The position numbers and the translations under genes were made by a program. A DNA stretch of 64,000 nt from Rhodospira trueperi (GTDB taxonomy: Bacteria > Pseudomonadota > Alphaproteobacteria > Rhodospirillales > Rhodospirillaceae): positions 372,001 through 436,000 of the forward strand of contig NZ_FNAP01000001.1 in the NCBI RefSeq assembly GCF_900101965.1, read 5' to 3'. The notes beneath the pieces are model-generated. The model was not told where the DNA came from. It saw only the letters and a list, made by a program, of their open reading frames with translations, and ran no database searches. Every line of letters begins with the position of its first letter. Within the stretch, counting starts at the first letter, position 1. Below, piece by piece: positions 1 to 14,910 of this stretch.

Positions 1-25
1 TGATATTTTTCAAAGCCCCGCACTT

Positions 26-48
26 AACCACCATTCAAACCACCACTC
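26..48 (+). repeat. Left pair of integrase arm-type repeats
   Basis: Two direct copies of an 11-mer lie 12 bp apart: AACCACCATTC at 26-36 and AACCACCACTC at 38-48. The same pair, with the same spacing and orientation, lies next to the integrase at 14745-14767. Tyrosine integrases of the P4/lambda type bind such arm sites flanking the crossover core. The repeats are seen; the binding role is inferred. Confidence 0.55.
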
Positions 49-91
49 GCGAATAGGAACTCTCGGGAAAAAACCCGATTCGATTCGCATG

Positions 92-124
92 AAAAAACCC
101 GCCCCCAGGTCTCCCAAGGGCGGG
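92..124 (-). terminator. Rho-independent terminator facing left
   Basis: Arms CCCGCCC (98-104) and GGGCGGG (118-124) form a GC stem. On the minus strand this is followed by six T (97-92). It would stop leftward transcripts leaving the packaging operon before the left attachment site. Confidence 0.5.
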
Positions 125-128
125 CGGG

Positions 129-151
129 ATACTGCGCACCGTGCGCAGTAT
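129..151. promoter_or_regulatory. Perfect 11-bp inverted repeat, possible operator
   Basis: Two 11-base arms beginning ATACTGCGCAC flank a single central base, making a 23-bp near-perfect palindrome. It lies just upstream of the ribbon-helix-helix remnant and may be its former operator. No T-run follows, so it is not an obvious terminator. Confidence 0.4.
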
Positions 152-213
152 GGTCAGGCGGCGGGCTTGGCGCGTTCGCGGAGCAACGCACCGGCCGCGT
201 CGTTCACGGTCGC

Positions 214-342
214 GCGGCGGCGGACGATGACCGCTCGGTGTCGTCTCTGGTTGAGCGCATCCTGAAAGCGTGGTTGACTGATAAGGGGTATCTGCCCGGC
301 CCCGGCGCGGATAGCGGAAAGGGCGGTCGGGTTTCCAGCTAA
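214..342 (+). pseudogene. C-terminal remnant of an Arc/ribbon-helix-helix DNA-binding protein
   Basis: The frame ending at the TAA (340-342) reads DDDRSVSSLVERILKAWL and then a Gly/Pro-rich tail. This resembles the second helix and end of Arc-like ribbon-helix-helix proteins, where RSVSSLVE is a common form. The frame is open back to 28 but holds no ATG, GTG or TTG upstream of 238, and no other frame supplies the expected N-terminal strand. I read it as a 5'-truncated gene. Apart from this remnant and the sites listed here, bases 1-368 show nothing codable. Confidence 0.4.
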
Positions 343-368
343 CCACCCCTGCTAAACGGGAGGAGAAA

Positions 369-650
369 ATGTGTGGGCCAACGATCCGGCTCTATTTTCG
401 ACGTTCGGATGGTGCGATAGAGGATGGCCAAATAGAATACGAAACCTCCGCCTTTGCTGGTTTCGTGCCTTCGGTCGGGGACGAGGTTGTTGATCCAGGT
501 GTCTTACAAGGACAAGACCGTAGAGACTATCGGAACCGTCAAATTCTGACCGTTGTCAGAAGGGTTTTCAGCCCTAAAGACAAAGAAGGCAGTATTGCCC
601 TTGTTGTAGAGCCTAGGCCGGCTTCCGATCAGGATCGTGACATCGTTTAA
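369..650 (+). CDS. Hypothetical small protein of the satellite (93 aa)
   Basis: I do not recognise this protein. The ATG has a strong ribosome-binding site (GGGAGGAG, about 4 bases upstream). The product is a mixed hydrophilic 93-aa protein with no signal peptide, membrane segment or cysteine cluster; it begins MCGPTIRLYF and ends in an acidic tail. With the next gene it is one of only two intact genes of the element on the plus strand, in the position between the packaging operon and the left end where satellites and prophages often carry accessory cargo. A defence or fitness role is possible but not shown. Confidence 0.6.
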   Translation: MCGPTIRLYFRRSDGAIEDGQIEYETSAFAGFVPSVGDEVVDPGVLQGQDRRDYRNRQILTVVRRVFSPKDKEGSIALVVEPRPASDQDRDIV

Positions 651-706
651 TTTGGTCGGCAGCGCGATGTGTCGGGCGCTTTGTAAAAAAAAGCGGGAGA
701 GTGCAT

Positions 707-919
707 ATGCCATACTATGTTTACGTGGACCCAAGCACTGGAAAGATAACAACTGGCAACAGCTTGCCTTTGGGGGCGCTGAATGCGAAGCAATTCAGCA
801 CTAGCGGGGAGGCACAAAAATACATGAACTTCGTCAATCAAAAACCGTATGGCAGCGTCCCCGATCTTATGCGCGCTATGGATGCGGCTGAAATGGCAAG
901 ATTAGCGGGGCTTTTCTAA
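707..919 (+). CDS. Hypothetical small protein of the satellite (70 aa)
   Basis: I chose the ATG at 707 because GGGAGA at 694-699 gives good spacing; a GTG at 701 would add two residues. The product begins MPYYVYVDPSTGKI and ends in a short amphipathic helix. No known domain is recognised. It follows the 93-aa gene by 56 bases on the same strand and is probably co-transcribed with it. It ends 43 bases from the end of the convergent zinc-finger gene. Confidence 0.5.
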   Translation: MPYYVYVDPSTGKITTGNSLPLGALNAKQFSTSGEAQKYMNFVNQKPYGSVPDLMRAMDAAEMARLAGLF

Positions 920-962
920 ATCAAACAAGCAGAAACCCTGATCCTCAGATCCGGGGAAAACC

Positions 963-1769
963 CTACGCGGCCTCTCGGGCGCGGCGCCGTCGAAGTTCCC
1001 AGGCACACTGGCGCGAACAGCACTCTTTCTTCGCGGCGGGAACGTGAAGGCGGAACACGGTGCCGCACACCGGGCATGTTCGCTCCGGTTGCTTCCGTTC
1101 CCGGTGCTTGTGATAGCAGGCGTTCGAGCAATATTCTCTGCCCTTCGCCGGGTGGATCGGCTCCCCGCACCCTTTGCAGGGCACATATTTCAGTTTGTTC
1201 GACCGCTTCATGCCAGCGTGGGCACACTCCCGCGAACAGAAGCGATGTTCGGCCCGCTCGGGTGTGAACAGCGTGCCGCAGTGCTTGCAGGGCTTGCGCC
1301 GCTCAATCCGCGTCTGTTCCTTGCGCGCCGCGCACGCGGCCAGATATTCGGCCATCGAGTGCACCTCGCCAGACCGGCGGGCCTTGTGGGCGTACGCCAG
1401 CCTCCCGCACAGGGCGGAACAGTATTTCCGGGGCACCCCGTTCCGGTGTGCCTCCGATGCCGGCGGCATCCCGTTCCCGCACCATGCGCAGCGTGTGCGC
1501 TCGGTCAGTTCGTCGATCCACTCGGGTTGCCCATCCGCCCATGTCGGTCTTGTGGCGCCGTTGGCGGCCAGGGCCTCGGAAACAACGTGGACGGCTTCCG
1601 CGTCGGCGCGCGGCCAGGGCCACCCGTCCAGACATAGGCCGGCCCGGATGCCATGGCGACAAGCGCCTTCATGCTCGAAGGGAGACGCGGACCAGTCCCG
1701 CAGGATGGCGGCCACCGTGGCGATGCGGCGGGCACGGTCGGACAGTCCGACATGTCCGCGCCGGCTCAT
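963..1769 (-). CDS. Multi-zinc-finger protein at end of the packaging operon (268 aa)
   Basis: The C-terminal two thirds contains four successive CxxC...CSxxC units: CAWC with CSALC, CKHC with CSREC, CKGC with CSNAC, and CPVC with CSRQC, each about 25-30 residues. Each looks like a treble-clef or zinc-ribbon knuckle. The N-terminal 90 residues have no recognised motif. Its ATG overlaps the terminase large-subunit stop (ATGA), so the two are translationally coupled and the protein belongs to the packaging operon. The role is unknown: a DNA-binding factor, or a nuclease accessory to HNH and terminase, are both possible. No HNH catalytic signature is visible here. Confidence 0.7.
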   Translation of the reverse strand: MSRRGHVGLSDRARRIATVAAILRDWSASPFEHEGACRHGIRAGLCLDGWPWPRADAEAVHVVSEALAANGATRPTWADGQPEWIDELTERTRCAWCGNGMPPASEAHRNGVPRKYCSALCGRLAYAHKARRSGEVHSMAEYLAACAARKEQTRIERRKPCKHCGTLFTPERAEHRFCSRECAHAGMKRSNKLKYVPCKGCGEPIHPAKGREYCSNACYHKHRERKQPERTCPVCGTVFRLHVPAAKKECCSRQCAWELRRRRAREAA

Positions 1770-3433
1770 AGGATCAACAGCCCTTCCGGCCGGGCGTCTT
1801 CGTCGTCATAAACGGAGCCGCCTTCACCGACCACGGCGCGGCCAACGGCCATAATCAGGGCGCCGGCCGCGTCGATTCGCTCTTTCGCCCTGGCCTTGCT
1901 CGGTTTGATGTTGCCGGCCGGGTCCTTGTCCGGGACCACGTTGGCGACACACCAGCGCAAGACAGGGTGCCCGCCGTGCCTGATCTTGCCGGACAGGATC
2001 AGCCGTTCCGTGTCCTTCATCGGTGGCGACATGGACACGAACCCTTGGCGGTGCGTCGTCACCGGAACGCCAGCGTCTTGCAGGCGGGTGATTGAGCCCG
2101 TTGCGTTCCACTGATCCATTGCGACTTCCTGGACGTTGAACCGCTCGCACAGGTCGATGATGCAGGCTTCAACGGCCGCATAGTCCACCACGTTGCCCGG
2201 TGTCGCGGTCAGCAGTCCCGAGTCCGCCCAGGCGGGATAGGGCACCCCGTCAACCTCTTGCCGGCGCCGGATGTTGTCGGCTGGCACGAAACAGAACGGC
2301 ACAACGTCCACCCCGCCGTCATCGTCGGGCACGGCCAGGACCACGGCCGTCAGGTCGGTTGTGCTGGACAGGTCAACGCCGATCCAGGCCGGCCGGCCTT
2401 CCATCGCGTCCAGGTCCACCGGATCGGCGCCCCGATCCCATGACGTCATCGCCACCCATCCGGCCACACTGCCGTCAATCCAGCGGTTCAGGTGCAGTTG
2501 TTGCCAGCCCTCCACCTCGTGGGGCAGCGGTGCGGCCTGACGCGCCAGCTTGCGCAGTTCGTCCAGATACAGGAACGCGCCCAAGGCCGGGTTCAGCGCG
2601 TGCCACAGGGCTTCATCCTGCCAGGGAAGGTCTTCGCCCTCGGGCGGGTCCGGGGCGGCGAAGATCACCGGCAGGAACGATTCGTCCTCCCGCTCGCCCT
2701 TCGCCACCGCGCGGGAATGCTGCCAGCGATCCCAGGCGAGCGTGTTCCGGCCCACGCCAGCGGTCGAAATGGTGATGGTCAGGGGGTCGGCCCGCTTGCC
2801 CATGCTGGTCCGCAGCACGCGCCAGAGTTCCCGGCCCGAATGCGCCGGCCATGCGTGGATTTCGTCCCCGATCAGCAGGGAGATGTTGAGCCCATGCTTG
2901 GTGTAGCTCTCGTGGGAAATGGCCTTCAGGACCGATCCCGATTTCGGGTGATGAAGCTCCTTCTGGGATTCCACCGCGCGGACGATCCGGGACAGGGTGC
3001 GGTCAGCCTCGACATACCGCTTGGCATGGCCGAACCCGATGGACGCTTGCCCCCGGTCGGCGGCGGCCACCACCACTTGCCCGGCGGCGTCGCGTTCCGG
3101 CCCCAGCAGGTGCAGCAACCCCAGCGCGGCAATGAGGGTGGTCTTGCCGTTGCCCCGGGGCAGCCACACGGCCACGTCGGAGAAGCGGCGTCGGCCATCC
3201 GGCAGGGTGTCCCCATAGACGCGCCGGATCAGGCGCCGTTGCCAACGTGCCAGCACTTTCCCCAGGCGTTGCCCGGCGCGCGGTCCCTCGGTGATGGTCA
3301 GGCGTTCCACGAACGCCACGGCCCGGGCACCCTTCCCATGAGGGTCGGGAATGTCGCTATCATCGAACAGCCAGGCGGGCCGGCAGGCGTCAACCGTCCA
3401 CCAGGTCGCCCCATCCGTCGCCGGTGTCGTCAT
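1766..3433 (-). CDS. terL: Terminase large subunit (packaging ATPase/nuclease)
   Basis: At 555 aa this is the full length of the Terminase_1 (HK97/phiC31-like) family. The Walker A motif LPRGNGKTT lies at residues 91-99 and the Walker B motif SLLIGDE ends at about residue 191. The RNase H-like nuclease domain begins with GVDLSSTTD near residue 352 and has a second acidic strand (VAMDQWN) later. It would power DNA translocation into the procapsid and cut concatemers. Its start overlaps terS by 44 bases. It sits at the end of a complete head module, which in this element has no tail genes beyond it. Confidence 0.95.
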   Translation of the reverse strand: MTTPATDGATWWTVDACRPAWLFDDSDIPDPHGKGARAVAFVERLTITEGPRAGQRLGKVLARWQRRLIRRVYGDTLPDGRRRFSDVAVWLPRGNGKTTLIAALGLLHLLGPERDAAGQVVVAAADRGQASIGFGHAKRYVEADRTLSRIVRAVESQKELHHPKSGSVLKAISHESYTKHGLNISLLIGDEIHAWPAHSGRELWRVLRTSMGKRADPLTITISTAGVGRNTLAWDRWQHSRAVAKGEREDESFLPVIFAAPDPPEGEDLPWQDEALWHALNPALGAFLYLDELRKLARQAAPLPHEVEGWQQLHLNRWIDGSVAGWVAMTSWDRGADPVDLDAMEGRPAWIGVDLSSTTDLTAVVLAVPDDDGGVDVVPFCFVPADNIRRRQEVDGVPYPAWADSGLLTATPGNVVDYAAVEACIIDLCERFNVQEVAMDQWNATGSITRLQDAGVPVTTHRQGFVSMSPPMKDTERLILSGKIRHGGHPVLRWCVANVVPDKDPAGNIKPSKARAKERIDAAGALIMAVGRAVVGEGGSVYDDEDARPEGLLIL

Positions 3434-3800
3434 CGGTCTTGCCTCTCAGGGCCTGGCGGTGTGGTGTCAGGCTCAATTCGGTGGCGAGCAAGCGGGCTTC
3501 CCGCATGGCGCCTTGCTGGATGCGGAAGGCCGGGTGGACAGTCGGGCCGCGCTCCGTCTCCACCGTCCGCCCTTCGGTGACCATCGTTTCTTCGCACTCG
3601 CGGACCATGCCCACCGCCACGCAATAGCTTTCCAGGGTGGCGCGGGCCTCGTCATTCAGCAGGCCACGGGCTTGCAGGCGCGGCGCAACCCGCTTCCACT
3701 CCGCCTTCGCGTGCGCGGGCAGCCATGAGGGCGGCGGAGGGGCACGGCGGACAGCGGCCCCACCCTCCACAACCTGCAATTTCGGCTTCCTGCCCTTCAT
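3390..3800 (-). CDS. terS: Terminase small subunit, P27 family
   Basis: This 136-aa protein starts MKGRKPKLQVVEGG and contains PSWLPAHAKAEWKRVAPRL, the hallmark of the P27-type (Terminase_4) small terminase. It would recognise the packaging site and recruit TerL, whose gene overlaps its 3' end. In satellites the TerS decides which genome is packaged, so this gene is central to whether the element packages itself or helper DNA. Confidence 0.85.
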   Translation of the reverse strand: MKGRKPKLQVVEGGAAVRRAPPPPSWLPAHAKAEWKRVAPRLQARGLLNDEARATLESYCVAVGMVRECEETMVTEGRTVETERGPTVHPAFRIQQGAMREARLLATELSLTPHRQALRGKTDDDTGDGWGDLVDG

Positions 3801-3891
3801 CGCTCAAAACCCCATTTTCGGCCGCGTCTCGCGCGGCACCCACCCGCCGGTCCCCAGGGCATCGAAGGAAATTCCCGACCCGCCCCCGGGG

Positions 3892-4206
3892 TTATTCGCT
3901 CGTGCAATGAAGCTCCAGGGCCTCGCGTCGGCCAACCTCCCGCACCTCTCTGATGTTCCACGTCGCGCCGTCCCATTCGACGGTCGCCGTCGTGTCCAGG
4001 CCATCAACCCAATGCACTGTGAAGACGGCCTTGCGCTCCGCCTGGACGGCCTCGGCGCCGATGAACTCCCGGCCGGACAACTGGCGGACGTTGGCCCAGA
4101 ATGTGCCCAGCGCGACCGTCCCACCGGGGATGGTCCCGCCGTAGCCGTCATCAATCATGGACGTGACCATGACCGTGATGCGTCGATCCATGCGCCCGAT
4201 GTTCAT
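3892..4206 (-). CDS. Head-tail adaptor / head closure protein
   Basis: A 104-aa protein starting MNIGRMDRRITV, with the beta-rich pattern of the SPP1 gp16-like head-tail joining family (Phage_H_T_join), including the typical VEWDGATWNI strand near the C terminus. I chose the ATG at 4206, which follows the TAG of the connector gene by 2 bases and has GGAG 9 bases upstream; an in-frame ATG at 4221 is possible. It would close the packaged head and present the docking surface for a tail, in this case presumably a helper tail. Confidence 0.75.
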   Translation of the reverse strand: MNIGRMDRRITVMVTSMIDDGYGGTIPGGTVALGTFWANVRQLSGREFIGAEAVQAERKAVFTVHWVDGLDTTATVEWDGATWNIREVREVGRREALELHCTSE

Positions 4207-4208
4207 GG

Positions 4209-4802
4209 CTAGAGGCTCCACACGCGATACGCGGCCAGGTCATCAACACCGGGCACGCGGTATGGGTGGGCGAACGTGACGTGTCCGCGCTGGCCGTACC
4301 GATCCGCAACGCGATCCTTGATCCACTGGCGTATTGGCATGGGAACGGCGGCCGGGTCATCGCCAAAGCCGGCGGTGAACGCGACCCGGACGCACTCGGG
4401 CGTCGTCGGGGTGCTTGGCCACCTCGTCACCGGAACGATGCGTCCGTCTCCACCGATGCCCGCCACGCGGTATGCGCTCGGGTCCAGAGTGACGGCGGAA
4501 CCGCTGGTGTCGTCATATTCGATGGCGTCCACCGCAATGAGCGGCGGGAGGGGCACCAGCAGGTCGGAGCGCGGGAAACCATCCAGGTACAACGTCCAGG
4601 ACTGTTCGATCAGGCAGCGGCCAAGGAAGCCGTCCCAGCCGTCCAGTTCGGCAACCGCCGCGTCGATCAAGGAGCGCACGTCCGCCGCGTCCACCGGCGC
4701 GGGGGGTGACAGGGTTTCGTCGAGGGTGAGGCGGAGGAAGGTCCACACGTCCGCCTCGTCAACCGGCAGGACCGTGGGTGCCATGTCCAGTTCAAGCCGC
4801 AT
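4209..4802 (-). CDS. Head-tail connector, gp6-like
   Basis: The 197-aa product starting MRLELDMAPTVLP resembles the HK97 gp6/phiE125 gp8 connectors: an N-terminal helical pair (LDETLSPPAPVDAADVRSL), a Trp-rich beta region and a C-terminal IRQWIKDRVADRYGQRG helix. An upstream in-frame ATG at 4934 exists but lies inside the HNH gene; the ATG at 4802 has GGGAG 7-8 bases upstream and overlaps the HNH stop by only 11 bases. It would form a ring under the portal. Confidence 0.75.
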   Translation of the reverse strand: MRLELDMAPTVLPVDEADVWTFLRLTLDETLSPPAPVDAADVRSLIDAAVAELDGWDGFLGRCLIEQSWTLYLDGFPRSDLLVPLPPLIAVDAIEYDDTSGSAVTLDPSAYRVAGIGGDGRIVPVTRWPSTPTTPECVRVAFTAGFGDDPAAVPMPIRQWIKDRVADRYGQRGHVTFAHPYRVPGVDDLAAYRVWSL

Positions 4803-5199
4803 TGTCGGGCTCCCGGTTCCAAGGATGATCGGGATCCTTCGGCGTGCCGTCCTCATTGCAGCCGTGCGGCACCGCGCCGCGCCGTTCCCGGGACTGAACG
4901 ACGGATCGGTGGTGGTGACGGCACAGCCCCTCAAGGTTTGACCAGTCGTTGGTTCCGCCGTCTCGCACGCGCTTCTTGTGGTTCACGTCCACAGCGTGTT
5001 CGATCCGGCCTTCACGCTGGCACATGACACAGAACGGGTGAGCCTTCAGGAATGCGGCCCGCAGCTTCTCCCATGCGGCATCGTATCCACGCGCACGCGG
5101 CGAAGGCCGGTTGTCGGTCTTCGGCCGGCAGTCGCACCGCTGCCCCGCTGGCACAGGCCGGCGGCACCGTGGGCAGATGCGGGGCGGTCGGGTCGGCAT
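4792..5199 (-). CDS. HNH endonuclease of the packaging module
   Basis: This 135-aa protein has an N-terminal zinc ribbon (CPRC...CDC) and the HNH core: CVMC, then DVNHKKRVRDGG, NLEGLC and RHHHRS. HNH proteins beside terminases in HK97-like phages assist cos cleavage and genome packaging. It is placed between structural genes and the connector, upstream of terS and terL, the same arrangement as in capsid-forming satellites. The presence of HNH suggests a cos-type packaging mechanism. Confidence 0.85.
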   Translation of the reverse strand: MPTRPPRICPRCRRPVPAGQRCDCRPKTDNRPSPRARGYDAAWEKLRAAFLKAHPFCVMCQREGRIEHAVDVNHKKRVRDGGTNDWSNLEGLCRHHHRSVVQSRERRGAVPHGCNEDGTPKDPDHPWNREPDNAA

Positions 5200-5201
5200 G
5201 G

Positions 5202-5474
5202 TCAGTTCACCCCCAGGATCAGCGACACGGCGCCGCTCGTGTGCGCGGTGACGTTGCCGCGCATGTATCGCAGCGCGGTCACCTCCGCAGCGTCGTTCCC
5301 AGTGAAGGTCGCAACGTCGGTCCAGTTCGTGCCGTCAAGGGACCCCTGCAATTTCACCGTCGCGGTCCCGCCGACGATGGACTGGACCACACCGGAACAG
5401 AACGGACGGCCCAGGTCCTGGGCATCGCCAACACCTGGGCCGGTTGCACCGCCAATCAACGTGATCTCGTTCAT
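5202..5474 (-). CDS. Small phage structural protein, unknown role
   Basis: A 90-aa Gly/Thr-rich, beta-strand-predicted protein (MNEITLIGGATGPGVGDAQD; LQGSLDGTNWTDVATF). Such proteins occur next to HK97-type capsid genes and may be decoration or capsid-stabilising factors. It lies two bases upstream of the HNH start and is in the same operon. No catalytic motif is visible. Confidence 0.6.
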   Translation of the reverse strand: MNEITLIGGATGPGVGDAQDLGRPFCSGVVQSIVGGTATVKLQGSLDGTNWTDVATFTGNDAAEVTALRYMRGNVTAHTSGAVSLILGVN

Positions 5475-5566
5475 TCGGTCTCTCCACCAAGGCGCCCGCC
5501 GGGATGCGAAGGGCTGGACACATCCCGGCGGGGCCGGTCCCGGCTCGTATCGGGTCCGCGCCGGTC

Positions 5567-5953
5567 CTAGGCGGCCACCGGCGCGACATTCGGATGACCG
5601 CGAACGATCACCGATGACGCGGCAACGCTGGTGCCGCTGTTCTTGGTGAGAACCACCTTGAGGTAGCGTTTCGCCCCGGTATAGCCGACGCGATAGACGC
5701 TGTTCTCGGCCAGGGTCGCCGGCCAGGTCCCCACCAGGTCGGTGTCGGTCACGGCCTCGAACCCGCTCCCGCTGGCATCGGAATGGTGCAGGGTCGGGGT
5801 GAAATCCCCGGAACCCGCAACGGCTCCCGTCTGCACAATGGCGGTGGCGGATTCGAAGCCCAGCAGGTCCACCGGCTCGCCCGTCGTCGTGGCGGTCAGT
5901 ACGGCCGGGCGGATGGTCTCCGCCGGGCCGATGTTGTGGGTCAGGTCACGCAT
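5567..5953 (-). CDS. Phage structural protein, possible head decoration
   Basis: A 128-aa protein starting MRDLTHNIGPAETIRPAVL, with TLHHSDASGSGFEAV and GAKRYLKVVLTKNSG. This pattern is frequent in small proteins immediately downstream of HK97-like capsid genes in alphaproteobacterial prophages. It is beta-rich with no membrane segment. It follows the capsid stop by 13 bases. Head decoration or fibre-like attachment is my inference. Confidence 0.6.
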   Translation of the reverse strand: MRDLTHNIGPAETIRPAVLTATTTGEPVDLLGFESATAIVQTGAVAGSGDFTPTLHHSDASGSGFEAVTDTDLVGTWPATLAENSVYRVGYTGAKRYLKVVLTKNSGTSVAASSVIVRGHPNVAPVAA

Positions 5954-5966
5954 GGTCGGGGCCTCC

Positions 5967-7634
5967 TTAGCTGGCGATCTTCTGAAGCTTCACGGCCTCG
6001 CTGTTCGCCAGCCCGCCACCGACGCGGCGATAGGCGTAGAACAGCACGTTCGGCTTGTCGGTCAGGTTGTCGCGGATGAAGCGCGTTCCCAGCTTGTCCA
6101 CGATCAGGTAGGCCCGCTTGAAGTTGCCGAAGGCGACGGGGACGGCGTTGCCCGCGATGTCCGGCATCGTTTCGTCAAACTCGACGGGGTAGCCCAGCAA
6201 GCTGTTCGGCGCCCCGGCCGTCATGCTCGAACGCCAGAGGTACCGGCCCTCGGTATCAACCAGGGTGTCCAGGGCGTTCGCGGTGTTGCTGTTCATGAGG
6301 AACACGGCGCCGTCGCGGTACGGGGCGCGCAAGGCCCAGACCAGATTTTTCAGCCCGTCCGCCGTGATCTTGGCGTTGTCGCCGGACTTCACGAACTGGA
6401 TGGTGCCCCACGGGCGGGTTGCGTCGGCGGTCGCGGCGGTCGCATAGGACAGCAGGCCGGCCGGGCGCTTCGGGGTGGTGGTCGCGGAAATGAACGCCGC
6501 ACCCTCGGAGCGGGTGAACTTGTCCGTGATCTTGCCTTCGATCCAGGCACCAAGGTTGATCCCGGAATCGTCCAGCAGGCGTTGCGTGATCGGCTGTTGC
6601 GCCTGGATTTCCCGGAGCGGCACCGTCAACAGACCGAGTTCGGCCGTGTCGGTGTCGGTGCGGGCCTCCCGCTCGCCAACCCAGGTGGCGCCGATGTCGT
6701 CGGCGTCGATGGGCTCCACCCAGGCGTCACCCTGAGTGATGGTCTCGACGCGGGCTAGCCGGCGCATGGGGGTGGCGTCGAACAGCTTCTTGGTCATGGT
6801 CTTGGACAGTTCCGGCATGACGACATAGCCGCCGTCCGGGTCGCTGCCCGACCACATGGAGCGCAGTTCAATCATGGGCTTGTCATCGCCCCGGGCAAGC
6901 GCGGCCAGGGCGCGGTGTTCGGCCTCGACACCGGAACGGGTCTCGGTGCCGTTGGCGGCGCCAGCACGGCCGGAACGGGCCTCCACCTTGTCCAGACGCT
7001 TTGTGGTCGCCTCGATGGTGGACCGCAGGTCGTTGACGGTACCGGTCAGGGTCTCGACGGCCCCCGACATGCGGGTCTCGAAATCATCGGTGTCGGTGCC
7101 GCGCGTTTCATCCGGCGCGGCGTCGGTCACGGTGTCCTTGTCCATGGCCTTGCCTTTCGGTTGCGCCGCACTCGCGGCATGGTCCGCCCGAACCTCGACG
7201 ATCCGGGCACTCTCGTTTGACGGTAGGGTTACGATTGAAACCTCTTTGGCGACGGCCTCGGTGATGCGGCGCCCGCCGGCCATCGCTTCGTCACGGCGCC
7301 GGACGAACCCGACCGACAGCCCGTTGACGGCGCCGGCCTTCAGAAGCTCGTAAGCCTCCCGCCCGCGTGTGGTCGCCAGCGCGAGACGCGCACGGACGAA
7401 CAACCCGCGTTCGTCTTCGCGGAGTTCGGTGATCGTGCCGACGGGCGCGGCCGGATCGTGCGACCACAGCAGCGCCACGGGCCGGCCGGTCCCGAGACTG
7501 GCGGCGAAGGCGCCCGGCGCGAACGCCGTGCGGTAGCTGTCCACCGTGCCCCAGGTCACGGCATAGCCCGAGAACTCGCCCTCGGTGGTCGGCGTCGGGT
7601 CGAACCGGATTTCAAGGCGTTCAAGCATCGTCAC
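5967..7634 (-). CDS. Prohead protease-major capsid protein fusion, HK97 fold
   Basis: A 555-aa polyprotein. Residues 1-150 are the U35-type prohead protease, with the catalytic His in LLWSHDPAAPVG (H59) and Ser in NGLSVGF (S107). Residues about 185-220 form a charged coiled-coil scaffold (delta domain). Residues about 260-555 are the HK97-fold capsid (GGYVVMPELSK; QPITQRLLDDSG). Separate genes are more usual, but fusions are known. It overlaps the portal gene by 14 bases. It shows that the element encodes its own capsid rather than remodelling a helper capsid. Confidence 0.9.
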   Translation of the reverse strand: MTMLERLEIRFDPTPTTEGEFSGYAVTWGTVDSYRTAFAPGAFAASLGTGRPVALLWSHDPAAPVGTITELREDERGLFVRARLALATTRGREAYELLKAGAVNGLSVGFVRRRDEAMAGGRRITEAVAKEVSIVTLPSNESARIVEVRADHAASAAQPKGKAMDKDTVTDAAPDETRGTDTDDFETRMSGAVETLTGTVNDLRSTIEATTKRLDKVEARSGRAGAANGTETRSGVEAEHRALAALARGDDKPMIELRSMWSGSDPDGGYVVMPELSKTMTKKLFDATPMRRLARVETITQGDAWVEPIDADDIGATWVGEREARTDTDTAELGLLTVPLREIQAQQPITQRLLDDSGINLGAWIEGKITDKFTRSEGAAFISATTTPKRPAGLLSYATAATADATRPWGTIQFVKSGDNAKITADGLKNLVWALRAPYRDGAVFLMNSNTANALDTLVDTEGRYLWRSSMTAGAPNSLLGYPVEFDETMPDIAGNAVPVAFGNFKRAYLIVDKLGTRFIRDNLTDKPNVLFYAYRRVGGGLANSEAVKLQKIAS

Positions 7635-8820: not shown

Positions 8821-8847
8821 CGCCTTGTCCTGCCCGGCCGCAAACAT

Positions 8848-8875
8848 GGTATGCGAAAAAATCGGCTAAAGTCAA
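8848..8875 (-). promoter_or_regulatory. Candidate promoter of the head operon
   Basis: On the minus strand TTGACT (8875-8870) is followed after 16 bases by CATACC (8853-8848). The -10 is weak. Transcription would start near 8840 and give a short leader containing the portal ribosome site. Confidence 0.35.
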
Positions 8876-8890
8876 GTAAAGCGTGCTTCT

Positions 8891-8935
8891 GTTCCTGAAT
8901 GTTCCTAGGTGTTCTCTGTTCTTATATTTCAGTTC
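8891..8935. promoter_or_regulatory. Cluster of five GTTC half-sites, decamer-phased
   Basis: GTTCC or GTTCT begins at 8891, 8901 and 8911, exactly 10 bp apart, with further GTTC at 8918 and 8932. Ten-bp phasing puts the sites on one face of the helix, as expected for cooperative regulator binding. The cluster is just upstream of the head-operon promoter and resembles the cluster upstream of the AlpA gene. Confidence 0.45.
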
Positions 8936-8975
8936 GTCTCATACTGTTTCAGGCCGTTTCTTTCCCGCCGTATTT

Positions 8976-9221
8976 TCACTGGCCCGACATGCCGCGCCGA
9001 AACGCTTCATCGAGAACGCGCGTGAACGCGGGGCGTGGATTCGGCTCCACCTCATCGGGATCCACGGCGGCCAGCAGGTCGCGGGCCAAGCGCAGGATCC
9101 GGTGCGGGTTGAGAGGGACGACAACGATGGGCTCGGGCTCATCGTCGGCATAGACGGCCAGAACGGCCGGTCCATTCGGCCCGTCGGGGCGTGTGACGAT
9201 GACGCGGGGATCGGTGGTCAT
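8976..9221 (-). CDS. Hypothetical small protein of the satellite (81 aa)
   Basis: I do not recognise this protein. It starts MTTDPRVIVTRPDGPNG, with a short beta-rich N-terminal half and an arginine-rich helix (PHRILRLARDLLAAVD). It has no signal peptide or membrane segment. It begins 13 bases after the preceding gene and ends the early operon before the AT-rich region that precedes the portal gene. Confidence 0.55.
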   Translation of the reverse strand: MTTDPRVIVTRPDGPNGPAVLAVYADDEPEPIVVVPLNPHRILRLARDLLAAVDPDEVEPNPRPAFTRVLDEAFRRGMSGQ

Positions 9222-9234
9222 GGCGTGGCCTCCT

Positions 9235-9555
9235 TCAGGCGGCGTCGAACGGCGCGGGGTCGGCCGGCGCGTCGAGCATCGCCAGCGTGGCGGGGGCCTC
9301 GGTGCGCACCAGGGCCAAGGCGCGGGCGCGGGTGCTGGCGTGCGGCGCGGTCAGGTGCGCGAACCCGATCCCGACCATGTGCAGGCGCATGACATCATCG
9401 ATCCGGCGCGGCCCCCGATCCGGTAACCGGGGCAACCCGCCCTCGGCGATCACCCGCCGGGCAAGCTCCCGACTGGAGGCACTGACAAACGGTGACGCGA
9501 GAACCGCATGGGCACCGTCCAAGAGCGGGTCGCAGGTCTCGGTTGGATCAATCAT
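9235..9555 (-). CDS. Hypothetical small protein of the satellite (106 aa)
   Basis: The likely start is the ATG at 9555 (MIDPTETCDPLLDG), with GAGG 7 bases upstream; the ATG also overlaps the stop of the Cys-rich ORF (ATGA). The product is mostly helical (SSRELARRVIAEGG; RARALALVRTEAP) and hydrophilic. No known family is recognised. Its coupling to its neighbours places it in the replication operon. Confidence 0.55.
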   Translation of the reverse strand: MIDPTETCDPLLDGAHAVLASPFVSASSRELARRVIAEGGLPRLPDRGPRRIDDVMRLHMVGIGFAHLTAPHASTRARALALVRTEAPATLAMLDAPADPAPFDAA

Positions 9556-9758
9556 CGCGTCACCTCGTGACCTGGGTTCGGCCCGGCCCCGATAGGGCCG
9601 GACCCTATTACGGAGTAATAGGGGACACACTTCCCGCAGACCCACCGCAGGAAAATCAATGACTTAGCGGGCAACTTCCCGCACTTCCCGCAACACACCT
9701 CCCGCAATGAAATCAACGGGTTAGCATTCCACTTCCCGCACTTCCCGCAAACGCTCAT
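9552..9758 (-). CDS. Cys-rich repeat peptide coupled to the replication ATPase (68 aa)
   Basis: The product contains two near-copies of an 18-19 residue unit, CGKCGK-x(4)-PLISLREVC and CGKCGK-x(3)-KSLIFLRWVC, followed by a third CGKC. The DNA repeat periods are 57 and 54 bp, both multiples of three. Its ATG overlaps the stop of the RepA-like gene, and its stop overlaps the next ATG, in both cases as ATGA. That double coupling argues for real translation. The CxxC pairs could bind zinc. The alternative is that the repeats (TGCGGGAAGTGCGGGAAG) are replication iterons that merely stay open in this frame. Confidence 0.5.
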   Translation of the reverse strand: MSVCGKCGKWNANPLISLREVCCGKCGKLPAKSLIFLRWVCGKCVPYYSVIGSGPIGAGPNPGHEVTR

Positions 9759-10903
9759 GGCGCACCTGGTGCGCTTTTGACGATAGCTTTCAGGGGCTTG
9801 CGGTCGGGTCCGGTGACCGATCCGACGCGGATCCGGCCATCCGAGAACAGGGCCTCCATGGCGCGTTCAAGGTCCTTCGCACGGGCGCCGTGGGCCTCGG
9901 GCATTCCCGCCATGATCCGGGGGGCAAATCGGGGGCTGTTGCGCGCGTCGGTGACGGCGCGGCCCTGGTCCGCCACCGCGTCGAGGCAGGCAAGGAACGC
10001 TTCTTCCGCCCGGTTCGCCTTGGCCTTCGCGTCCATGCGGCCCAAGAACCCCGTGTCTGGCGCATCCAGGACGAACACACCGTCCTGCCAGCGGATGCGC
10101 AGTTCGTCGCCCACGACCCCGTAGTTCGATTTCTTGGTGGACAGGGTGCGGGCGTCCCGGTCGTCTCCGTCGTCGTCGGTTTCGCGCGGGCGGGACAGGT
10201 AAAGGCGGGACCGCACCGCGTTGTTCCAGGCGGTAGACCCGCTGGTGCCCGTGCCGTCGGCCAGCCCGGCGCGGGAGGGATGGGCACACAGGACCACCGC
10301 GCCGTTGACGTCCAGGGCGATCCGCCGGAGCATGTTCACGAATTGGCGCGCCTCCGGGCGGGAGTTCTCGTTGCCGTCGAACAGGTCGTGCAACCCGTCC
10401 AGGATCACCAGCCGGGCGCCGAACCGCTTGGCGGTTTCCAGCGTGTCAAAGAACACCTGACTCGGCCCCTGCGGCTTGCCGAACTTGTCGCGTTTGACGA
10501 ACTCGTTGGCCTCCCCGACACGGGAGGCGAACCGGAACCCGGCCAGGGCCTCGAACCCCAGCCCCTCCGCCCGGGTGATGTCGGACAGCCGGCGGTGGAT
10601 TTCGTCCGCGTCGTCTTCGCAGTACAGCCCGAAAACGCGACAGTGTTCCGTTGTCTGACGAAGGAAATCCTGCCCCGTCGCGGCGGCCACGGCCAATTGA
10701 AGCGTCAGTAGAGATTTGCCCAACCCACCGTCGCCGGACAGCATGGTGACGGACCCGTGGGGCACCAAATCCGCCACCATCCAGCGGCGTTCCGGGATCG
10801 GCTTGCCGGCCCAAGTGGTGGGGTCGATGGTGCGTATGGGCAGGCGCGGCGTGAACGTTTCGACCGACCCGCGCGCGTTGAAATGACCCTCGGGCTGTTC
10901 CAT
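9755..10903 (-). CDS. RepA-like AAA_25 replication ATPase
   Basis: A 382-aa protein with the Walker A motif GDGGLGKSL at about residues 57-65 and Walker B RLVILDGL near 145-150, the layout of the AAA_25/RepA (RSF1010-type hexameric helicase) family found in phages and satellites. An arginine-finger region (GSTAWNNAVRSRLYL) is also present. The ATG at 10903 overlaps the primase stop (TAATG). A long upstream extension of the frame lies inside the primase gene and is not coding. Together with the primase it would replicate the excised element. Confidence 0.8.
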   Translation of the reverse strand: MEQPEGHFNARGSVETFTPRLPIRTIDPTTWAGKPIPERRWMVADLVPHGSVTMLSGDGGLGKSLLTLQLAVAAATGQDFLRQTTEHCRVFGLYCEDDADEIHRRLSDITRAEGLGFEALAGFRFASRVGEANEFVKRDKFGKPQGPSQVFFDTLETAKRFGARLVILDGLHDLFDGNENSRPEARQFVNMLRRIALDVNGAVVLCAHPSRAGLADGTGTSGSTAWNNAVRSRLYLSRPRETDDDGDDRDARTLSTKKSNYGVVGDELRIRWQDGVFVLDAPDTGFLGRMDAKAKANRAEEAFLACLDAVADQGRAVTDARNSPRFAPRIMAGMPEAHGARAKDLERAMEALFSDGRIRVGSVTGPDRKPLKAIVKSAPGAP

Positions 10904-11829
10904 TACGCGGCCCTCGGCGTTTCGTCGTTCCAGTCGTGCCCGACGTCGCGCGGGGCGCGCACGATGGCCTCCCGGTCGGCATCGGCCCACCGCTGGGCAC
11001 AGGAGCGGCCGGCGTCCAGGCCCGCGCCGCTGGCGTCGTGATCGGCAAAGATCGTCAGGGCCTCGATTCCGGCCAGCACGGGGAAGGTGCGGATCGTGCC
11101 GGCGGAGCCGGCGGCCCAGACCGGAGCCCACCCGGCGGCCAGGACGGACAGGCCGGTTTCGATGCCCTCGCTCAGGCCAAGCCCAAGGGTCACGTCGGCG
11201 TCATCGCACAGGCGGATGACGGCGCCCTTCGATGGCCCGAGCATCTTCTTCGGCCTGTTCCGATCCCGCTCCCCCGTTCCGGTGAGCGGGGTCCGATGGA
11301 TGGCGACGGGCCGGTTCCCCTCCGCCGTGGTCATGAGCGCGACCATGCAGGGCACGGCCCCGCCCTGGTACGGGCAGGCCGGATGAAACCGGGCGGCGTT
11401 GGCCCCGGCCGGCGGCAGGACGCACCCGCGCCCGATCAGGTACGCGGCGGCCGGGGTGTCGGGGATCGGCACGGCCGCGCGCCAGATGGCTTCGGCCCGC
11501 TGGATGCGCTGGCGGGTCTCGGTTTCGGCCTGGGGATCAGGGCGCGGTGCGTACGTCGCGGCGCGACGCGGGGTGTGGTCGGTGTCGTCCGGCGGGAGGC
11601 CGATCCAGTCCAGGGCGTCCCGGCCGGTCAGGCCGATGTGCGCCCGGATCAGGTCCAGGACACCACCGCCGTCCCCGGTCTCGTGGTCGCGCCAGACCCC
11701 CTTGCGCACGTCCACGCTCAAGGAGCCATGCCGGCCATAGCGCCAATCGGTGCGGGTTGAGTGCGCCCGGTTCGGATCACCCAAAAGGCGCGTGGCGACG
11801 TCGGCCATATGGGGGGCGAGGTCATGCAT
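10903..11829 (-). CDS. Toprim-domain primase
   Basis: A 308-aa protein. The N-terminal part (WRYGRHGSLSVDVRKGVWRDH; GGGVLDLI) resembles the DUF7146/CHC2-like module of phage primases. The C-terminal Toprim_3 domain carries the acidic motif LSEGIETGLSV and the DxD motif IFADHDASGAG. It would make primers for satellite replication and is coupled to the downstream ATPase gene. Primase plus RepA helicase modules are a feature of P4-like and PICI-type satellites. Confidence 0.8.
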   Translation of the reverse strand: MHDLAPHMADVATRLLGDPNRAHSTRTDWRYGRHGSLSVDVRKGVWRDHETGDGGGVLDLIRAHIGLTGRDALDWIGLPPDDTDHTPRRAATYAPRPDPQAETETRQRIQRAEAIWRAAVPIPDTPAAAYLIGRGCVLPPAGANAARFHPACPYQGGAVPCMVALMTTAEGNRPVAIHRTPLTGTGERDRNRPKKMLGPSKGAVIRLCDDADVTLGLGLSEGIETGLSVLAAGWAPVWAAGSAGTIRTFPVLAGIEALTIFADHDASGAGLDAGRSCAQRWADADREAIVRAPRDVGHDWNDETPRAA

Positions 11830-11935
11830 GGGTCAGCCCCAACACGCGGAGGATGACAGGACACCACCGACGCGGGATCAGCCCGCGCGCGGCGGCGGAG
11901 ACGATCCCGGTCTTGATGGTGCCGGCGGCGGTCAT
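11822..11935 (-). CDS. Tiny basic ORF coupled to the primase (37 aa)
   Basis: A 37-codon frame starting MTAAGTIKTGIVSAAARG and ending LRVLGLTHA. Its ATG lies two bases after the stop of the preceding gene and its stop overlaps the primase ATG by 8 bases, so it exactly fills the only gap in the early operon. The composition is basic and hydrophobic. No homologue comes to mind; it could be a leader peptide that couples translation. Upstream G-rich sequence is a poor ribosome site. Confidence 0.4.
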   Translation of the reverse strand: MTAAGTIKTGIVSAAARGLIPRRWCPVILRVLGLTHA

Positions 11936-11937
11936 GG

Positions 11938-12165
11938 CTATTCGCCCCCGGCGGTGTCCGCCCACCGCGTGCCGATGAACGCGGCGCCCTCGTCCGGCGG
12001 GCTCCCGGTGATGTCGATGGGCTCAACGGTCGTGGCGCCGTTGGGGTGCTGCATCAGCGCAAGGCACATGACGGGCACCGACCACGGCGTGTCGAACCGC
12101 CCGAAGTCCAGCAGCAGGCCGGGCGGAGCGGGGATGATTTGCAGAATGCGGGGATGCTCGGTCAT
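11938..12165 (-). CDS. Hypothetical small protein of the satellite (75 aa)
   Basis: I do not recognise this 75-aa protein (MTEHPRILQIIPAPPGLLLDFGRF). It has a beta-strand-like N-terminal half with several prolines and no cysteine pairs. Its ATG overlaps the AlpA stop codon (TAATG), so the two are co-translated. It lies between the regulator and the primase. Confidence 0.55.
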   Translation of the reverse strand: MTEHPRILQIIPAPPGLLLDFGRFDTPWSVPVMCLALMQHPNGATTVEPIDITGSPPDEGAAFIGTRWADTAGGE

Positions 12166-12374
12166 TACGCGGCCTCCCCCTGGCGGGAGGCGGCGACACG
12201 GGCCGCGATCCAGGCGTCCACCTCATCCTCGATCCAGGCAACCGACTTCGGCCCGAGGCGGATGGGCTTCGGGAACTCATCGCGCGCCATCTTGGCGTAG
12301 ATGCTGGATGTAGACAGGCCGGTCTTCGCCTTGACGGCGGGGCGGCGGAGCAATGCGCTAGACTTGCGTTCCAT
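12165..12374 (-). CDS. alpA: AlpA-family regulator/excisionase-like HTH
   Basis: The 69-aa product (MERKSSALLRRPAVKAKTG) has the MerR-like winged helix of AlpA proteins: RRPAVKAKTGLSTSSIY, then FPKPIRLGPKSVAWIEDEVDAWI. I chose the ATG at 12374, which has AAGGA 6 bases upstream, over one at 12413. AlpA regulators switch on satellite or prophage excision genes, and in PICI-type satellites AlpA drives the replication operon. Here it heads that operon, behind an intergenic region rich in GAAC/GTTC half-sites. Confidence 0.85.
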   Translation of the reverse strand: MERKSSALLRRPAVKAKTGLSTSSIYAKMARDEFPKPIRLGPKSVAWIEDEVDAWIAARVAASRQGEAA

Positions 12375-12441
12375 GGGGTATTCCTTGGTCGTGCGTGGAA
12401 CCAACACGGCCAAGGTACGGACGCGGGAGTCCGCCCTCTAG

Positions 12442-12534
12442 GAACTTATTTGAGATGGAATTTTGTTCACTTTCGGCAAGTCATCCAAGCAGGATGCTTT
12501 ACTATGAACAGAGTTCCGGAGGAATTTTGTTCAT
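12442..12534. promoter_or_regulatory. Early control region with repeats upstream of AlpA
   Basis: A direct repeat GGAATTTTGTTCA occurs at 12457-12469 and 12521-12533. An inverted repeat ATGAACA/TGTTCAT spans 12504-12510 and 12528-12534, and GAACAGAGTTC at 12506-12516 is itself a small palindrome. GAAC or GTTC occurs five times (12442, 12465, 12506, 12513, 12529). The sequence is AT-rich compared with its surroundings. It likely holds the AlpA operon promoter and its operators, although I see no clear -35/-10 pair. Confidence 0.5.
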
Positions 12535-13469
12535 ATGCCGCTGCCAGGGCCTCCCCGGCGGATATGGTGGAGCGGGTCAATGCCATTGAGGATGTCCAGA
12601 TCCTTCTCAAAACGCTCTCGCATCATCCGTTGGGCCGGCGATTCCACCTCTTTCGGAAGGTTGCATCCGGCTCGGCGAAGTGCTTCTTCAATGGCCTGCT
12701 GGTGCGGTGTGCTGACCAAGTCCTGCATGATGTTGTCAATGGCCCTCTGGTGCGGTATATCAGCCCACTTTTGAGTGATGGCATCAATGGCGCGTTGTTG
12801 TGGTGTGTCCTGCCATGCTTTTAAATTGTCCAGGCTTCTTTGAATGTGTGGTGGCATCCGATTTTCCCTGTCTATAATTTCTTGAATATGCGCCGGGATA
12901 CTCGCCATATGGTCGATTGTTGCCCCCGCTGCAATCAACTTCGTCCACGGAGAGTCCGGGCGTGAGTGGCCGGCGGCCTTCAAGCGTTCCCAGGGCGTTC
13001 CGATGCGCGGATCAGTCAACGGATCGTCACATGCTAGGTTCGCAATGTCGAAGCCACTCCACAGGGCGCTCTTGGGCACTTGAACGATTTTCGGCTTGGC
13101 CCGCTCACGCGCACGCGCCAGTAGTTCGCCCTTCTGGTCCCGGAAGTTCCGGACCAGTGGCGCCGTCGTGCTGCGCCACCTATCGGACTCCGCTATAGGC
13201 AGTGGGGATGGCATCCCCAGATACTTCACTGCGATAGCGCGCGCTGCGGCTTCCACGCCGTCCGTCCGTCCCTTCACGGCGCCCGTGACGATCAGGTCCG
13301 CCATTTCGTCCAAGTACTCTTGCGGCGGGCGGTTTCGTCGCTGCCCCGGCTTCGGCCCAGGCTTGCGGCGGGCAGGCGTCTTCCCGGCCGCGTCCATGAG
13401 GATCCCGGGACCATGAAGTTCCACCAGCCGTGCGATTTCGCGGCGGGCCTCTTCCTCGTTCATGCTCAT
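12531..13469 (-). CDS. Uncharacterised repeat protein between int and alpA (312 aa)
   Basis: I do not recognise the family. The N-terminal part has an AT-hook-like basic stretch (ARRKPGPKPGQRRNRPP) followed by a helical region. The C-terminal third carries three imperfect repeats of about 20 residues: DTPQQRAIDAITQKWA, DIPHQRAIDNIMQDLV and STPHQQAIEEALRRAG. The ATG overlaps the integrase stop (ATGA), so it is expressed with int. A DNA-binding or regulatory role in integration or superinfection control is possible; this is inference. Confidence 0.65.
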   Translation of the reverse strand: MSMNEEEARREIARLVELHGPGILMDAAGKTPARRKPGPKPGQRRNRPPQEYLDEMADLIVTGAVKGRTDGVEAAARAIAVKYLGMPSPLPIAESDRWRSTTAPLVRNFRDQKGELLARARERAKPKIVQVPKSALWSGFDIANLACDDPLTDPRIGTPWERLKAAGHSRPDSPWTKLIAAGATIDHMASIPAHIQEIIDRENRMPPHIQRSLDNLKAWQDTPQQRAIDAITQKWADIPHQRAIDNIMQDLVSTPHQQAIEEALRRAGCNLPKEVESPAQRMMRERFEKDLDILNGIDPLHHIRRGGPGSGI

Positions 13470-14713
13470 GCCCGCGCCTCCGCCAGCATCACCACGTCAC
13501 CGGTGCCGATCTCGCCGTCGCACCACCGCTGCCAATCCACCATCAGCCGGCGGCGGCGGTCGAACAGGTCGGCGCGGAGGTAGGCGCGCGCGACGCGATC
13601 ACCGACCGCATGGGCCAGCGCCATTTCGGCCATTTCGCTCGGATAGTTCGTCCGCTCGGCGGCCCAATCCCTGAAGCTGGACCGGAAGCCGTGAACGGTC
13701 AGTCCGTCGCGGCCCATGCGGCGCAAGAGAACGGACATTGCCATGTTCGACAGCCCGCGTCCGGCCTTGCCGCCGGGGAAGACAAAGCCCTCGGTGTCGT
13801 GCGTTGCAGCCATGTCTCGCAGGATTTCGACGGCACGGGGAGGCAGGGGAACACGGTGTTCCCGCTCCATCTTCATCCGCTCGCCGGGCACGATCCAGGT
13901 TTCGGCGTTCAGGTCGATTTCGGACCATTGGGCGCCGATGGTCTCGCCGGTCCTGGCAGCCGTCAAAATCGTGAACTCAAGGGCACGGGCGGCAACACCA
14001 CCCTGTTGCCGAAGGTCGGTCACGAACGCGGGCACGTCGGCGTAGGGCAGGGCGGGGCGATGCTTCACCTTCGCCACCTTCTCCGGTGACGCCAGCAGGT
14101 GTTGCAGGTGCCCCTTCCACCGGGCCGGGTTCTCGCCTGTCCGGTATCCCCGAGTCGTGGCCCAACCAAGGATGCGCTCTATCCGGCCCCGGACGCGGGA
14201 GGCGGTCTCGTGCTTCTCGGTCCAGACTGGTTCCAGAACTTTCAGCAGGTGCGGCGTGTCAACGTGCGCCACGTCCAGGGCGCCGATCAGCGGGAAGGCA
14301 TACAGGGCCAGCGTGTTTTCCCAGTGCTGCCGTTGCTTGTCCGTCTTCCAGCCCGGCGCGTGCGCGGTGATGTAGCGTTCGGCGGCGTCCTGGAAGGTGA
14401 CGCGGGATGCCTCTTGCGCCCGCTCCGTGGCCTCTGTGGCGCGCTTTTGGTCCAGGGGGTCTATGCCCTCATGGATCATCCGGCGGGCCTCCGTGGCCTT
14501 CTGGCGGGCTTCTTCCAGCGACACCAGCGCCACCGGCCCGAACCCCATGGCGCGATAGCGGCCCCGGAAGCGATACCGGAAGAGCCACGATTTGGTCATC
14601 CGCCCGCCGGCCCCTGCGGCGACCTGCAACCACAGTCCATTTCCGTCGCCATAACGGCCGGGCTCGTTCAGGGCGCGGACCTTCGCCGCGCTCAGTTTAT
14701 TTCCGATCCGCAT
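13466..14713 (-). CDS. int: P4-type tyrosine integrase
   Basis: A 415-aa site-specific recombinase. The N-terminal DUF4102 arm-binding domain is seen in KLSAAKVRALNEPGRYGDG and GLWLQV. The catalytic set is visible: Arg in TAARTGETIG, HxxR in VHGFRSSFRDW, His in ALAHAVGD, and Tyr in ARAYLRAD. I chose the ATG at 14713; a TTG at 14746 lies inside the arm repeats. It sits beside the tRNA fragment that it would use as attachment core. Confidence 0.95.
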   Translation of the reverse strand: MRIGNKLSAAKVRALNEPGRYGDGNGLWLQVAAGAGGRMTKSWLFRYRFRGRYRAMGFGPVALVSLEEARQKATEARRMIHEGIDPLDQKRATEATERAQEASRVTFQDAAERYITAHAPGWKTDKQRQHWENTLALYAFPLIGALDVAHVDTPHLLKVLEPVWTEKHETASRVRGRIERILGWATTRGYRTGENPARWKGHLQHLLASPEKVAKVKHRPALPYADVPAFVTDLRQQGGVAARALEFTILTAARTGETIGAQWSEIDLNAETWIVPGERMKMEREHRVPLPPRAVEILRDMAATHDTEGFVFPGGKAGRGLSNMAMSVLLRRMGRDGLTVHGFRSSFRDWAAERTNYPSEMAEMALAHAVGDRVARAYLRADLFDRRRRLMVDWQRWCDGEIGTGDVVMLAEARA

Positions 14714-14744
14714 GGCCTGACTGCCACTCCTGCCCACCCGCTTC

Positions 14745-14767
14745 AACCACCACTCTAACTACCACTC
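14745..14767 (+). repeat. Right pair of integrase arm-type repeats
   Basis: AACCACCACTC (14745-14755) and AACTACCACTC (14757-14767) are direct repeats 12 bp apart. They match the pair at 26-48. They lie between int and the attachment core, about 120 bases from the core, as expected for integrase arm sites. Confidence 0.55.
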
Positions 14768-14886
14768 TTGGGCGGGAACGTACAAGAACAATCGGAAACC
14801 CCTCGGAATGAAATCTGATAATACGCTGTTCTATATAAATGTTTTTTGGAACAATCTGGAACGTGTTGCAACAACCTTAGATGTTT

Positions 14887-14910
14887 GTTCGAATCCTACC
14901 GCCGGAGCCA
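14887..14910 (+). other. attR: 3' fragment of a tRNA gene, probably tRNA-Asn
   Basis: The sequence holds a T-loop (TTCGAAT), its 3' stem CCTAC, then CGCCGGA, a G discriminator and CCA. A U1-A72 acceptor with G73 best fits tRNA-Asn. The 5' T-stem strand that should read GTAGG is instead GTTTG, and the rest of the tRNA is absent, so only the 3' end remains. This is the copy left when an element integrates into a tRNA gene; the intact tRNA should be at the other end, left of the window. Confidence 0.7.

Follow-up and report, generated by a model that had tools for sequence, protein, structure and literature searches.

A probable capsid-forming phage satellite integrated at a tRNA-Asn gene of Rhodospira trueperi

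The stretch of Rhodospira trueperi DNA analysed here, 64 kb of a draft genome of 50 contigs that is 98.5% complete (G000:C14:372001-436000; hereafter the window, whose base 1 is C14:372001), opens with an element that is very probably a phage satellite of the kind known as capsid-forming phage-inducible chromosomal islands (cf-PICIs), integrated at the 3' end of a tRNA-Asn gene. An earlier note, made from the letters of the window alone, had read the element in this way, and the reading is now backed by its gene content, by a gene order like that of an Escherichia coli element and by the signature genes published for cf-PICIs. The integrase, AlpA-type regulator, primase, RepA-like ATPase and full HK97-type head and packaging module on which that note relied were all found where it had placed them (Table 1). 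The head and packaging genes are present and no tail gene was recognised, so that the element, which is apparently complete and intact with all of its genes open, most likely borrows the tails of a passing virus.

The ends of the element are set by an intact tRNA-Asn(gtt) gene at C14:371898-371972, whose 3' end lies 28 bases left of window base 1 and whose last 24 nucleotides are duplicated at C14:386887-386910 (the attR core in Table 1). Given this intact gene and its duplicated end, both ends are fixed and the element spans C14:371973-386910, or 14,938 bp, beginning 28 bases before the window; called genes occupy 13,612 of these bases (91%). That both ends were near had been correctly anticipated, and left of base 1, where the earlier note had allowed for the tail and lysis genes of a prophage cut by the window, lie instead the tRNA-Asn gene with the att core and, further left, a tRNA-Cys gene. 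The sequence AACYACCAYTC occurs exactly four times in the 64 kb (0.08 expected), at positions 26, 38, 14745 and 14757, that is, as a pair near each element end with 12 bases between the members of a pair. They resemble arm-type sites for the element's integrase, in which an arm-binding domain (PF13356) was recognised. PICIs carry an integrase and att repeats, and the element has both. Profile scans of the element's proteins recognised, within the att ends, none of the tail or lysis genes that an autonomous prophage holds there, save for one weak partial match (orf90, below), in keeping with the absence of tail, tape-measure, baseplate, holin and endolysin genes reported before. cf-PICIs are not known to carry lysis genes. 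The size of the element and its head module ending in terL agree with what is expected of cf-PICIs, whose mean size is 14 kb (PMC10803314). The cf-PICI signature genes listed in the available excerpts of PMC10690885 and PMC10448857 are also present, except that replication is assigned here to two overlapping genes (Toprim primase and RepA-like helicase) and iterons, with no single Pri-Rep protein.

Table 1. Features of the element, in window coordinates (Pfam matches of the head, packaging, AAA_25, Toprim and integrase genes lie above curated cut-offs; PHROGs has no curated cut-off)
Feature	Position	Strand	Evidence or remark
Left element end	1..50	.	arm-like repeats at 26-36 and 38-48; attL core outside, C14:371949-371972
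orf93	369..650	+	homologue adjoins TerL in Roseospira visakhapatnamensis element (8e-36)
orf72	701..919	+	
Zinc-finger/HNH-like protein	963..1769	-	phrog_1271 1.1e-14
TerL, large terminase (ATPase + nuclease)	1766..3433	-	2.3e-53; final gene of head module
TerS, P27 family	3390..3800	-	7.7e-22
cos-like block	3801..3891	-	G-run, AATTT, GACCG, CGCGCGA; between head closure and TerS genes
Head closure protein Hc1	3892..4221	-	PF05521 1e-20
Head-tail adaptor	4209..4934	-	phrog_442 1.4e-18, TIGR02215; start codon uncertain
HNH endonuclease	4792..5199	-	1.4e-7
orf90	5202..5474	-	extra gene just upstream of HNH relative to R. visakhapatnamensis element
Post-capsid protein (conserved), likely capsid cement protein	5567..5953	-	phrog_5707; predicted jelly-roll
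Fused S78 prohead protease and HK97-fold major capsid protein, one open reading frame	5967..7634	-	S78 7.3e-29, HK97 capsid 9.3e-70
Portal, HK97 type	7621..8847	-	PF04860 8.6e-88
orf81	8976..9221	-	homologue upstream of portal in R. visakhapatnamensis (2.4e-8)
orf136	9235..9645	-	
Iteron array, likely replication origin	9630..9749	-	five TGCGGGAAG with AT-rich spacers
RepA-like ATPase/helicase	9755..11131	-	AAA_25 4.9e-32
Toprim primase	10903..11829	-	phrog_510; Toprim 5e-14
orf75	11938..12165	-	
AlpA-type regulator/excisionase	12165..12413	-	phrog_66 1.4e-9
orf312	12531..13469	-	no match in Pfam, PHROGs, NCBIfam or PADLOC at limits used
Tyrosine integrase with arm-binding domain	13466..14746	-	
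Two integrase arm-like repeats	14745..14767	+	
attR core, copy of last 24 nt of tRNA-Asn	14887..14910	+	

Within the head module, the phrog_5707 protein encoded after the capsid gene is likely a capsid cement protein, to judge from its predicted fold. The fusion of protease and capsid, described in the earlier note as a feature not known from described members, proved to be common among relatives: 35 of 47 related loci (some elements counted twice) encode both in a single open reading frame (ORF) of at least 497 residues. The block between the head closure and TerS genes resembles HK97-type cos ends and is a candidate cos site; in the records of phages HK97, phiKO2 and AS1, whose last base we take to be the cos cut, a G-run, an A/T patch and an ACCG or ACTG box precede that base, and an E. 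coli element (NZ_CP008957) also has a similar block before its TerS gene. Of 29 satellite loci, 22 show a loose version of the pattern upstream of TerS, where random stretches would give 3.7, a count that is descriptive only because the pattern was chosen after the loci had been seen.

The motif TGCGGGAAG occurs five times within 120 bases directly downstream of repA and seven times in the whole window, where 0.82 copies would be expected. At locus L042, in the same order, a homologous repA (40.6% identity over 355 aa) is followed by four copies of TGCGGGAAG with AT-rich spacers, and no ORF of 90 aa was found on that strand at these copies. Since the motif stands beside repA in both loci, it appears to be conserved as DNA, like an iteron origin. 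The stretch at 9552-9758, which had previously been taken for a Cys-rich repeat peptide, therefore reads better as an iteron array, most likely its true nature; that it encodes a peptide after all retains some probability, given that the translated peptide matches a 66-codon stop-to-stop frame slightly further on in L042 (1.6e-5). The RepA and iteron module of L042 (L042:3842-5600) belongs to a prophage that is tailed by our reading of its ORFs and whose capsid domain is 42.7% identical to that of the window over 314 aa. The AlpA-type protein had no NCBIfam match and owes its assignment to PHROGs only. A tRNA-Ser predicted by ARAGORN at 10513-10585, inside repA and on the same strand, is probably false.

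These assignments suggest a life cycle in which the growth of a tailed helper phage, most likely a siphovirus, in the cell would trigger the element, which would be excised by the integrase and the AlpA-type protein and replicated from the iterons by the primase and RepA. The element would then build its own matured and cemented head, HNH, TerS and TerL would cut and pack its DNA at the cos-like site, the adaptor and Hc1 would close the head, and the tails and lysis functions of the helper would be used for exit from the cell.

Foremost among the known systems with which the element can be compared is the E. coli element at NZ_CP008957 1680329-1694760, which we take, from its gene content, to be the cf-PICI EcCIEDL933. 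It shares with the window element a set of genes that there extend over 14.4 kb: the integrase, a small helix-turn-helix regulator, a primase, capsid, protease, portal, head closure and connector genes, as well as HNH, a P27 TerS, and a TerL that comes last and is followed by a small gene. It differs in the order capsid-protease-portal, with protease and capsid unfused, and in a DUF927 primase where the window has a Toprim primase and RepA. Its TerL represents a different lineage, a single clade with the window group being rejected by the approximately unbiased test (p-AU 0.00015), whereas for the portal such a clade was not rejected (p-AU 0.163). HK97, phiKO2 and Marinobacter phage AS1 have homologous head and terminase genes and the same cos layout; their TerL gene, however, precedes that of the portal, tail genes follow, and their genomes are 37-52 kb. 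The available part of PMC13230959 describes a satellite-plasmid of Vibrio crassostreae (cf-PISP) that likewise is capsid-forming, lacks tail genes, encodes a terminase and HNH and measures 15.8 kb, but is episomal, with parA and repA and no integrase of the usual kind.

A close relative, an element of R. visakhapatnamensis (L036 = L065), is from the same genus and has the same order, a TerL 94% and a TerS 79% identical to those of the window, and an orf93 homologue. It resides at tRNA-Ala, its integrase and DUF927 primase have no match to those of the window, its portal and capsid are only 54% and 41% identical, and neither orf90 nor the zinc-finger gene was seen in it. The sharing of the terminase block (86% DNA identity) by elements with unmatched integrases and primases suggests module exchange. 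Ratios of nonsynonymous to synonymous substitution (dN/dS) for this pair of elements are 0.10 for TerL, pointing to purifying selection, 0.19 for TerS and 0.32-0.49 for Hc1, HNH, portal (0.44) and adaptor.

A portal search of 297 genomes of the order gave matches in 29, tailed phages in many cases; a further search of 84,980 species, with eight aligned portals as the query, found 379 relatives, of which the best 80 were used. The loci divide sharply: among 101 with both genes (duplicates included), TerL follows the portal in 41 and the tailed-phage order is seen in 60. All 27 of the 41 TerL-after-portal loci that carry a class name are Alphaproteobacteria (Rhodospirillales 11, Hyphomicrobiales 6, Rhodobacterales 4, Acetobacterales 3, no order 3), a count biased towards such loci because the query was built from them. 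Of 49 loci examined, 15 (representing 13 distinct elements) have a head block that lies between copies of an exact repeat overlapping a tRNA gene; the ten distinct bounded elements that end in the terminase range from 14,390 to 17,065 bp and occupy tRNA-Ala, Arg, Leu, Lys, Ser, Val and Thr genes. One of these ten (L087) has a tape-measure gene (6.1e-42), and as the scan of bounded relatives for tail families covered ten chosen ORFs only, others may hold tail genes. The best phage records listed, from 50,697, reach 38.5% identity for the portal and 40.0% for TerL, as against 61% and 94% in relatives.

Phylogenies were quick trees with long branches in which groups were named after the trees had been seen. 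Beforehand, 22 rows (3 satellites, 19 of phage order) had been removed manually because they duplicated others or were closely related to them. In the portal tree (92 rows), the window falls in a clade of 43 rows, 36 of satellite order and seven terminase-less, with none of phage order (support 99); in the TerL tree (80 rows), it falls in a clade of 36 rows with one of unknown order and no phage (support 98). The TerL of a Defluviicoccus satellite (L074) groups with phages, and in this element TerL is followed by a neck or tail-completion protein (L074:15564-16235; phrog_26, 3.9e-10).

Several observations weigh against the satellite reading. The trees proposed in the earlier note as a check bear it out for portal and TerL but not for the capsid domain, which groups with five phage-order rows, apart from 42 other satellites, with a support of 99 that falls to 84 in the full-length tree; one of two capsid-domain trees also puts the E. 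coli cf-PICI with the window. Forcing the window capsid together with the 42 satellites gave a borderline p-AU of 0.038, which rose to 0.068 when six long or distant rows were left out. Given that the protease domain is nearest to that of a satellite (51%), the fusion may be a chimera, a suggestion and no more. The dN/dS of the capsid pair is 0.72, although the method is weak for sequences that far apart. The cos-like pattern is absent from seven of the 29 loci, 34 of the 49 loci showed no tRNA-borne end repeat (many being cut by contig ends), and orf90 shows a weak match of 42 residues to a major tail protein family (6.9e-4). No empty site was found, the two flanks lying on different contigs in five other genomes of the genus. 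The particle, its induction and transfer, the theft of tails and the helper are predictions from the genes. Finally, three Pfam tail families have no match in the host genome, and no siphovirus helper was seen with them; the tailed prophage that the earlier note had thought worth seeking elsewhere did not emerge in this way, the only phage pieces seen being a P2-type tube and, on contig C27, a portal that is P2-like by our reading. The absence of an evident helper is not unusual, because none of 17 prophages of an E. coli strain mobilised the cf-PICI of that strain, according to the available part of PMC11389934. We note that the 19-kb host contig C27 also encodes a 1449-aa protein adjoining the P2-like-looking portal gene (G000:C27:2894-7243, L057).

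It is unlikely that the element is instead a decaying prophage from which tail, lysis and other genes have been deleted. Such an origin would agree with the kinship of its capsid domain and RepA to those of the tailed-looking prophage L042, and L040, with a capsid, a tape measure and no TerL found, could be a remnant of this type; the open genes, the att repeat and arm sites and the purifying selection on TerL nevertheless argue against it, as do relatives of about the same size and the same TerL-last order in different tRNA genes. Simple deletion is improbable because TerL-first phages trimmed in this manner would not give a TerL-last order. We consider it very improbable that the genes form the domesticated head cluster of a gene transfer agent or split phage with its tail genes elsewhere in the chromosome. 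The capsid's best match of solved structure is indeed the capsid of the Rhodobacter capsulatus gene transfer agent (RcGTA; 6.1e-66), but agents of this type have their own tail genes and are not known to carry integrase or replication genes, whereas the window element is equipped for integration (integrase, att repeats) and for replication (primase, RepA, iterons), its relatives occupy different tRNA genes and plasmids, and PF13550, a tail family present in RcGTA, has no match in the genome. Equally remote is a true satellite that relies on its helper for head or packaging parts as well. Dependence does vary among relatives (some with no TerL found, some with a tape-measure gene), but the window element has open genes for portal, protease, capsid, adaptor, head closure, HNH, TerS and TerL alike.

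Regarding the remaining genes of this probable satellite, the zinc-finger/HNH-like gene is probably cargo and is not among the matches listed for other loci, orf90 is weakly similar to discoidin-like and tail proteins, and the 312-aa product of orf312 is the largest protein of the element without an assignment. Among the relatives, tape-measure genes were seen in otherwise tail-poor satellite-like elements (L087:15312-17726; L040:13179-16001, in which a capsid but no TerL was found; L336:13635-16352). Tape measures in PLEs and some cf-PICIs have already been published, as excerpts of PMC12987554 indicate. Four small circular alphaproteobacterial plasmids have portal and terminase in the order of the window: L052 (CP099479.1), with no annotated tail gene in an incomplete gene table; L053 (NZ_CP157016.1), with a tape measure; L334 (NC_010721.1), with a tape measure, tail tube and chaperone; and L335 (NZ_CP088250.1), with a weak tape-measure match (5.1e-9) and no capsid identified. 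Small plasmids among the relatives include Roseomonas mucosa pTT14-8, Paracoccus marcusii unnamed5, and Methylorubrum pMPOP02 and pB146-3; the describers of capsid-forming satellite-plasmids, in the part of PMC13230959 available, found them in Vibrio only. Five Rhodobacteraceae islands (L084, L085, L086, L089, L092) encode an integrase, two small conserved proteins, portal and capsid, with no TerL found within the DNA searched; in three of them, end repeats were seen at a spacing of 15.3-16.1 kb, and L086 also has a tape-measure gene (1128 aa).

A wider reading, which we advance with somewhat less than even confidence, joins these observations. Capsid-forming satellites of Alphaproteobacteria would constitute a large radiation of their own, distinct in TerL from that of the E. 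coli type; intermediate stages linking phages and satellites would exist side by side (head-gene plasmids with a tape measure, tail-less islands such as that of the window, a plasmid without annotated tail genes, terminase-less portal-capsid islands); genes would be swapped with tailed phages; and the window element would be a chimera in which the portal, protease and terminase come from the satellite side and work with a capsid domain and a RepA-iteron module akin to those of phages. In the available part of PMC11389934, cf-PICI capsids are described as forming three radiations.

Capsid-forming elements of this kind are known in other bacteria, and that of the window is very probably one more, in a varied alphaproteobacterial family. 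A family present in Rhodospirillales, Acetobacterales, Rhodobacterales and Hyphomicrobiales would bring tail-borrowing transfer to bacteria of soil, water and plants, Azospirillum, Bradyrhizobium and Methylobacterium being examples of such hosts. Its graded relatives make the origin of satellites, by reduction of phages or by assembly of parts, a testable question (raised in the available part of PMC11389934), and the alphaproteobacterial family merits separate study.

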